64,000 nucleotides of DNA from Maylandia zebra (lineage: Eukaryota; Chordata; Actinopteri; Cichliformes; Cichlidae), in NCBI RefSeq assembly GCF_041146795.1, contig NC_135183.1, forward strand, positions 16,062,840-16,126,839. The letters are read 5' to 3'. A model generated the notes under the pieces. That model saw nothing but the letters and a program-made list of their open reading frames with translations, searched no databases and was not told where the DNA came from. The first letter of the stretch is position 1. The number at the start of each line of letters is the position of its first letter. Made by a program: the position numbers and the translations under genes. This document shows positions 10,811 through 12,426 of the stretch, piece after piece.

Positions 10811-12426
10811 TTAACCCTTGTGTGGTGTTCATATTTTTGTTACTCAGCCAGTGTTCATGGGTCTGGTGGACCCGCTAGAGTTTTGGCTTTCCAAATTAAC
10901 ACTATCAAACAATTTTATGTTAAATTACTCAACAGATGTTTACTTCATCCCAATTACAAGCCATATGAACAGCAAAGACGGTTAATTTTTTCCCTTTCCC
11001 TTTGTTAGATCACATTTATGAATTAATGTGCTTCTCGTTTTTTGTTTTTTTGTTTTTTATAAAATGTTATAAAAAAATAAATCAGTTATAATCAAGTGGA
11101 GTGAGTGGAAAGACACAACACATTTACACGTGAAGCAATATGTTTCACAACTAAATGGGATCAGCTGCTCATCAATGGTGACATTAGGCCCAGGGTTGTA
11201 AAACAGGGGGAGGTGGTGCACACACTTATCCCACACTGTCCTGATGGCAGCTAGCTTGTCTCTCTGCCGTCGAGCTGGTCTGTCGTCTCGGTTATCAAAA
11301 CGGATAATCCTGGAAATTTTGTGGAAGTTTTCCAGAGACATTGATGCACGGAAAGGTTCTTGCCGGTTTCTGCATCCCACAGGGATTCTGTGGATTCCCC
11401 TTTGGACCTGAAAACTCCTGCAAGGATAAGAACCCCAAAGTAGGCCTTTGGGGTTCTTGGAGGAATTTGGTCTCCTTCCACCTCTCTCCAAAAACACACC
11501 TTCCTTCTAGATTACTGCAATCCAGAATAATTTTCTGGATGGAATCTGGGATGAAAAGCTCAAATGAAGACTTGATGTCCTGCACATGAGTAACTGTCAG
11601 CCGTTGGCCCTGGCCAGTAGCAGCTCTGCAGGGTGGCTCATTTCTTGGGCAAGAAGACCATTCAATTTCACCAGTTATTGACATCCATATTTCTTCACTT
11701 GCCGTCTGGTGGGCTTGTTCTGGTCCTGGAGCTGGCAGCAGATGGGGTACTCGTCTTCGTTTTGTTACTAAATGGTGCTCAACCTCATCCTCTTCTTCAA
11801 AGTCCCTGTCAGACTCTGAATTTTCAGAAATGTGAAATATTCTGAAACCTCTTTGTCAACATCATCATCCGAAGCCCCTCTCTCTTCCAAAATCAATTGG
11901 ATGGCCCTCGCAGCAGATAATCTTTTGCCATCTTGATCAGTTGTGATAAAGAACCACACTGGCAAAGTCTTATTTATAGTATTATGCCCCTAATTTGCAG
12001 GTGGGACAGGGTATGAGAAAATAAAATTTGGATCCCTCAAGAAAGAGGGTAAAATGTGTGGGAATGTAAGGGCAGACGGTGTTGATAGTTGAATTTTCAA
12101 CAATGTTGCAACTTTGTGCGGGAGCAGGAGGGGAAGAAAACACTATCAGCAGCACCAGAAAGGAGGAAGACAGAGTGTGGGAACACAGGACCTGCACTTT
12201 CAACACTTTTATTAGACCTGGGTCCAGTGGACCCGAACACCTTGTATGTAATGTAAATGTGTGGGGGGAGGTACAGTATGAGGTCATTGAAAATTAGTTT
12301 ATGTTCTTCACAGAAAATAAGCCAAAGCCAATGAATTTCAGGTTGAAAAAATAAATTGTTTAATTTTTCTTTTCAAAAAAAAACTGAAAACGGGTCTCAC
12401 AGACCCGAACACCATACAAGGGTTAA
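10811..12426 (-). mobile_element. piggyBac element (PGBD-like), TTAA-flanked
   Basis: The element is bounded by TTAA at 10811-10814 and 12423-12426, the target duplication of piggyBac transposons. Its terminal inverted repeats read CCCTTGTGTGGTGTTC (left) and, reversed, CCCTTGTATGGTGTTC (right). Subterminal short palindromes follow on each side (GGGTCTGGTGGACCC and GGGTCTGTGAGACCC). It is about 1.6 kb and carries a decayed transposase on the minus strand. The right end lies exactly at the end of the piwil1-like reading frame. Confidence 0.9.
11057..11965 (-). pseudogene. Decayed piggyBac transposase
   Basis: Three minus-strand frame segments can be read. The acidic N-terminal part (11965-11768) includes EERGASDDDVDKEVSEYF. 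A middle part (11684-11295) includes SFELFIPDSIQ. The catalytic start (11340-11160) includes DKLAAIRTVWDKC and YNPGPNVTIDEQLIPF; the IDEQL aspartate is a conserved catalytic residue of the family. Frameshifts separate the parts, and the rest of the catalytic core and the C-terminal cysteine domain are missing. The product cannot be an active transposase. Confidence 0.85.

Follow-up and report, generated by a model that had tools for sequence, protein, structure and literature searches.

Background

An expansion of piwil1 in Lake Malawi cichlids, with PiggyBac-1 elements as neighbours of the copies, has already been published (Almeida et al. 2025, PMC11753138). According to the main text of that paper, Astatotilapia calliptera carries four copies, among which piwil1.1 holds the ancestral position, piwil1.2 is judged a likely and piwil1.3 a possible pseudogene, and piwil1.3 and piwil1.4 are truncated. 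PiggyBac-1 is placed directly 3' of piwil1.2 and piwil1.4 and 7 kb downstream of piwil1.3. The same text reports piwil1.4 in 82 of 88 individuals, with expression in gonads and, at a low level, in brain, and puts its sweep score in the 93rd percentile; the copy is treated as lacking the MID domain, and the domain drawing shows a PIWI domain only (PMC11753138). Here we describe a piwil1 copy on the minus strand of a 64,000-nucleotide stretch of the Maylandia zebra genome (NC_135183.1, positions 16,062,840 to 16,126,839; hereafter the window, whose own numbering is used throughout), which we infer to be piwil1.4 and whose reading frame ends inside the adjoining PiggyBac-1 element.

The window product can be set beside several known proteins. 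It shares the MID-PIWI lobe and its 5' pocket residues with MIWI, Siwi, and fly Piwi, and the catalytic set, named DEDH (PMC7015924), with MIWI and Siwi, whereas fly Piwi has DVDK. It differs from all three in that no N or PAZ part was found for it in the window and in that its C-terminal carboxyl group lies off the conserved Leu; in fly Piwi, the carboxyl group of this terminal Leu holds a metal at the 5' phosphate of the PIWI-interacting RNA (piRNA). The archaeal AfPiwi likewise consists of a MID-PIWI lobe only, but keeps its C-terminal carboxylate at the metal (PMC2835997), which the window product would not. AfPiwi is moreover an ancient form, while the window product is a recent eukaryotic truncation. 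Host and piggyBac sequence also meet in the CSB-PiggyBac fusion protein, where a transposase part is reportedly joined to the host product by splicing; in the window, by contrast, nine terminal-repeat residues are added by direct read-in.

A PIWI reading frame that ends in transposon DNA

The last exon of the copy (exon 9, 12397..12540, minus strand; supported by the splice model and identical to the corresponding part of P0001, introduced below) crosses the TTAA target site on the PIWI side of the element (12423..12426) and enters PiggyBac-1, as a preliminary description of this locus had stated. Native PIWI sequence runs to Leu393, the conserved last Leu of the family (codon 12429-12427). 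The next nine codons and a TGA (30 bases, 12397..12426, with the TGA at 12399-12397) start inside the TTAA (12426-12423) and go on in the left terminal inverted repeat (TIR), CCCTTGTATGGTGTTC. Minus-strand translation across the junction reads ...KLDDQLFYL LTLVWCSGL TGA, which agrees to the base with the earlier account, and the predicted peptide over the junction is ...LFYLLTLVWCSGL. The annotated PIWI reading frame takes its final nine codons and its stop from the piggyBac terminus; translation of the tail would follow from that frame. The further claim that a gene repressing transposons ends in transposon DNA holds for this duplicate and not for the ancestral piwil1.

The position of the family's own stop is well conserved. 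Among the best 120 of 2,793 Piwil1 matches, 118 end in F/Y-Y-L, bearing out the preliminary description's statement that the family normally stops after FYL; the two exceptions are P0108, marked LOW QUALITY, and P0001, an Astatotilapia calliptera record (NCBI 'piwi-like protein 1, partial') that matches the predicted 402-residue product residue for residue. All 11 PIWI-clade sequences in the PDB that reach the C-terminal part, which represent about six proteins, have as their last residue the one aligned to Leu393; the twelfth sequence, 4p1z, is a fragment of MID. In the window product, the conserved Leu is not the C-terminal residue, as the chain runs nine residues beyond it.

A search with the tail region as query (residues 355-402), confined to candidates of 0.55-1.75 times 402 residues so that full-length Piwil1 lay outside it, returned 134 matches, the best 120 of which are considered here. 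P0001 was the only match with 100% identity and full coverage among them; P0128 likewise spans the full query, at 77%, but continues from FYL with WAVGFF.... Under a loose pattern, the family motif ends 105 of 113 further proteins. In four of the remaining eight (P0126, P0128, P0129, and P0236) YL-W stands in the end region, which suggests that predictions made from contigs have rendered a TGA as Trp; another of the eight, P0143, is a partial record in which YYL is followed by other residues. Because the database is clustered at 90% identity, with P0001 representing three sequences, tailed close relatives may be hidden behind it. No relative of P0001 was found in a scan of viral contigs. In an unrelated fish, Diretmus argenteus, a Piwil1 prediction (P0113) is joined to PF14291 and PF27073, both of which we take to be transposase-like.

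A stop supplied by a transposon is cheap to obtain, since stops within ten codons are common (met from 8,400 of 20,000 starting points drawn at random on the minus strand of the window) and the three frames through the element end give an immediate stop (the TAA within TTAA), nine codons (the frame used here), or 28 codons. What sets this locus apart is that the stop of the family itself has been lost, not that a stop occurs soon after the junction.

The junction DNA reads CTTTTAA, and with one T fewer it would read CTT-TAA, placing the stop inside the TTAA. The simplest account of the lost stop would be an extra T in piwil1.4: a young duplicate would have abutted PiggyBac-1 at a TTAA overlapping the original end of the gene, and one T gained before the stop would have turned CTT-TAA into CTT-TTA-A, leaving the frame to end at the TGA in the transposon's left end. 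The preliminary description had reasoned instead that the host site lacked its stop before insertion, as removal of the element gives FYL-LNLLDP-TAA. The flanks, joined by eye, do read in this way, but the conclusion drawn from them is weak given the extra T and given that the flanks may never have been contiguous. Almeida et al. consider joint movement of piwil1 and PiggyBac likely, at least in the first duplication, and leave recombination open for later ones (PMC11753138); under joint movement the two flanks need never have adjoined each other in piwil1. No perfect copy of the TIR sequence TTAACCCTT lies upstream of the gene, and the window copy may have arisen by either route, joint or separate movement.

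Proposed consequences for guide binding

The tail sits on the one backbone group by which PIWI proteins hold the 5' metal of the guide. Normally the carboxyl group of the terminal Leu holds the metal that binds the first and third phosphates of the guide, and the tail would put a peptide bond in place of the Leu393 carboxyl group, with weakened or changed binding of the guide's 5' end as the expected outcome. Because the conserved terminal Leu carboxyl holds the metal at the guide 5' phosphate, the tail should disturb guide binding and probably spoils the site that grips the start of the guide RNA. We consider it moderately probable that the whole of this description applies, i.e. that piwil1.4 lost its stop and gained a transposon-derived tail on a MID-PIWI lobe with altered guide binding. 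Such a natural mutant, made by the class of element that PIWI proteins repress, would bear on the dependence of PIWI proteins on a free C-terminus. A bolder version, in which capping of the C-terminal carboxyl made a complete MID-PIWI slicer lobe guide-free or guide-altered and the product spread to near fixation in Lake Malawi, e.g. as an antagonist of the piRNA pathway, appears very improbable to us.

Several points weigh against the tailed, guide-altered product. The tail is so far a prediction from the DNA sequence. The NCBI record that agrees with the window probably derives from the same assembly and so gives no independent check of the extra T. AlphaFold predicts tail residues 395-402 to be disordered, at a predicted local distance difference test (pLDDT) score under 50; yet in the control model of a normal cichlid Piwil1 (P0002) the last six residues average a pLDDT of 56, and structural alignments of the tailed model pair residue 394 or 395, rather than 393, with the chain ends of PIWI structures. 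These models hold neither metal nor RNA, and displacement of the carboxyl group is not proven by prediction; as AlphaFold is not decisive here, the expected structural effect is drawn from published chemistry. Moreover, only a PIWI domain appears in the domain drawing of PMC11753138, and the start of the real protein may therefore lie further along than the DNA permits.

The encoded MID-PIWI lobe

The copy comprises nine intact exons from 16814 to 12397 on the minus strand, with a predicted product of 402 residues and a frame without internal stop; the introns are GT-AG, except for one GC-AG intron after exon 5. The product is 98% identical to the full-length cichlid Piwil1 P0002 over 98% of its length, and its place among PIWI-domain proteins follows from this identity together with Pfam Piwi PF02171. 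Significant window matches to P0002 cover residues 464-856 only; the N and PAZ part was not found in the window, where P0002 residues before 464 match only with E above 8.

The first exon present (16627..16814, minus strand, as are all that follow) begins YDYNPW..., is bounded by splice sites, and matches P0002 residues 464-526 at 98% by tblastn. Residue 14 is the first Met in frame, with an out-of-frame ATG ahead of it. Exon 2, in MID (16388..16460), is supported by the splice model and homology to P0002. Exon 3 (15948..16148) completes MID and carries pocket residues Y100, K104, Q116, Q139, and K143; its support comes from the splice model, homology, and the PF02171 match on the open reading frame (ORF) of the exon. 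All five pocket residues are kept, and residues 2-128 of 4p1z align to residues 17-143. The PIWI part continues through exon 4 (15493..15596; catalytic D164; splice model and homology), exon 5 (15186..15256; E202; splice model), exon 6 (14948..15101; D234; splice model), exon 7 (14535..14660; splice model and homology), and exon 8 (14263..14410; H325; splice model and aligned rows), before exon 9. All four slicer residues of the DEDH set (D164, E202, D234, and H325) are kept. From sequence, the DNA encodes a complete MID-PIWI lobe with both the slicer and the 5'-phosphate pocket residues, and the published argument that the absence of MID keeps Piwil1.4 from binding small RNAs hinges on the gene model.

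Two substitutions stand out in an alignment of hand-picked rows. Residue 319 of P0001, encoded in exon 8 and near the catalytic His, is Glu where all 60 other rows with a residue at this position have Gly, and residue 188 is Cys where the other rows have Ser or Thr. G319E and Cys188 may point to relaxed constraint.

Identity of the copy

A truncated copy that directly adjoins PiggyBac-1 fits the published description of piwil1.4 and, for this reason, we infer that the window gene is piwil1.4 of Almeida et al.; the TIRs agree as well. The agreement with PMC11753138 is not complete, as MID is treated as lacking there but is encoded in the window DNA. In either case, the gene is a 5'-truncated duplicate and not the main piwil1 of the fish. 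Six other A. calliptera piwil1 records retrieved, including P0004 and P0016, all end at FYL, as does P0003 from Maylandia zebra; P0003, P0004, and P0016 are taken for piwil1.3. In P0004 and P0016 the prediction also joins piwil1 to sequence that resembles retroelements (Pfam PF00665, PF00078, and PF22938).

Expression of paralogs calls for caution, as reads of near-identical copies can cross-map. The preliminary description had named a full-length piwil1 elsewhere, with a silent copy here, as a finding that would undo its reading; the full-length gene does lie elsewhere, but a silent copy is at odds with the gonad expression reported for piwil1.4 (PMC11753138). Literature searches of open-licence PMC papers turned up no description of the tail, and 'C-termin' occurs twice in the main text of PMC11753138 (figures and supplement being outside this scope), in other contexts. 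The transposon tail at the guide-binding C-terminus and the MID encoded in the DNA go beyond the account in that text.

Alternative explanations

Ordinary decay would explain much of the locus, with piwil1.4 a pseudogene in the making or an untranslated gene and the tail a neutral accident. The 5' truncation with N and PAZ exons not found in the window, the late first Met behind an out-of-frame ATG, the G319E substitution, and the state of the sister copies piwil1.2 and piwil1.3 (PMC11753138) are all consistent with decay. The nine exons with their splice sites are intact, however, the slicer and pocket residues are kept, and the gonad expression, frequency, and sweep signal reported for piwil1.4 (PMC11753138) count against this reading; we regard decay as possible, though short of probable. 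The extra T could alternatively be an assembly error or a minor allele, such that the protein normally ends in FYL with its TAA inside the TTAA. One T fewer restores exactly this arrangement, and P0003, P0004, P0016, and the other retrieved A. calliptera records end at FYL, but assembly errors typically arise in longer runs than four T, and the window sequence is matched by the NCBI record, though this record is unlikely to be an independent witness. This explanation seems unlikely to us.

A tail that is present in the DNA could still be rarely made, were transcripts to skip or run past exon 9, and database gene models of the piwil1 copies do vary in exon use. Exon 9 nevertheless has an intact acceptor and is the only match in the window to the last residues (819-856) of full-length Piwil1, and we hold such skipping or extension to be decidedly unlikely. 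At the other extreme, the tail may be a selected innovation yielding a guide-free PIWI, e.g. one that competes with Piwil1.1 for partners or targets. The sweep signal and the near fixation reported for piwil1.4 (PMC11753138) and the intact slicer residues are compatible with selection, but a sweep at the level of the locus does not single out the tail; such an innovation strikes us as very improbable.

The PiggyBac-1 element and neighbouring sequence

PiggyBac-1 occupies 1,608 bp (10815..12422, minus strand), recognized by its TIRs and a partial DDE_Tnp_1_7 match, and its transposase remnant and the PIWI gene point the same way. TTAA stands at both ends, with the far-side site at 10811..10814 and the matching TIR next to it, and both TIRs are identical to those printed for PiggyBac-1 in PMC11753138. 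No intact transposase was found, as the element has no long ORF and the Pfam scan gave a single transposase fragment (ORF 11060-11506, profile positions 69-141 of 349 in DDE_Tnp_1_7); a neighbouring ORF (11295-11855) had no Pfam match. The piwil1-linked PiggyBac copies are likewise described as unable to make functional transposase (PMC11753138). An AATAAA inside the element (12208..12213, minus strand) is a candidate polyadenylation signal from a motif scan, which also gave an ATTAAA starting at 12364. A scan of 9-30 kb for TTAACCCTT gave no clear candidate for the distal end of a composite unit, as perfect sites occur only at the two element ends, with eight one-mismatch sites on both strands. 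Within intron 8, an apparent element with inverted ends (12615-14035), which we liken to the Tc1 type, encloses a nested short element (13065-13423) with GGGCTGCCACGATTAGTCGACTA-type inverted ends; the family names of both are our assumption.

The 5' border of the piwil1 duplication lies in the interval 16815..16901 (minus strand), as piwil1 homology starts at 16814 and homology of an upstream gene to P0121 ends at 16902; the alignment of that gene with P0123 runs on weakly to 16869. An exon-like ORF of this other gene (17567-16902, minus strand) is 39-79% identical over parts to P0121-P0124. It lies on the same strand as the piwil1 copy and ends no more than 88 bases from the first piwil1 exon, placing the landing site of the duplication in or next to its gene. 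A fusion of this host gene with PIWI through the ORF 17684-16869 was considered and rejected: homology ends at 16902 with one relative and fades by 16869 with another, and splicing from the most obvious donor, CTTCG|GTATAA, would put exon 1 out of frame. Elsewhere in the window, at 24932-24561 (minus strand), lies an MGS-like domain (PF02142), presumably part of a CAD gene.
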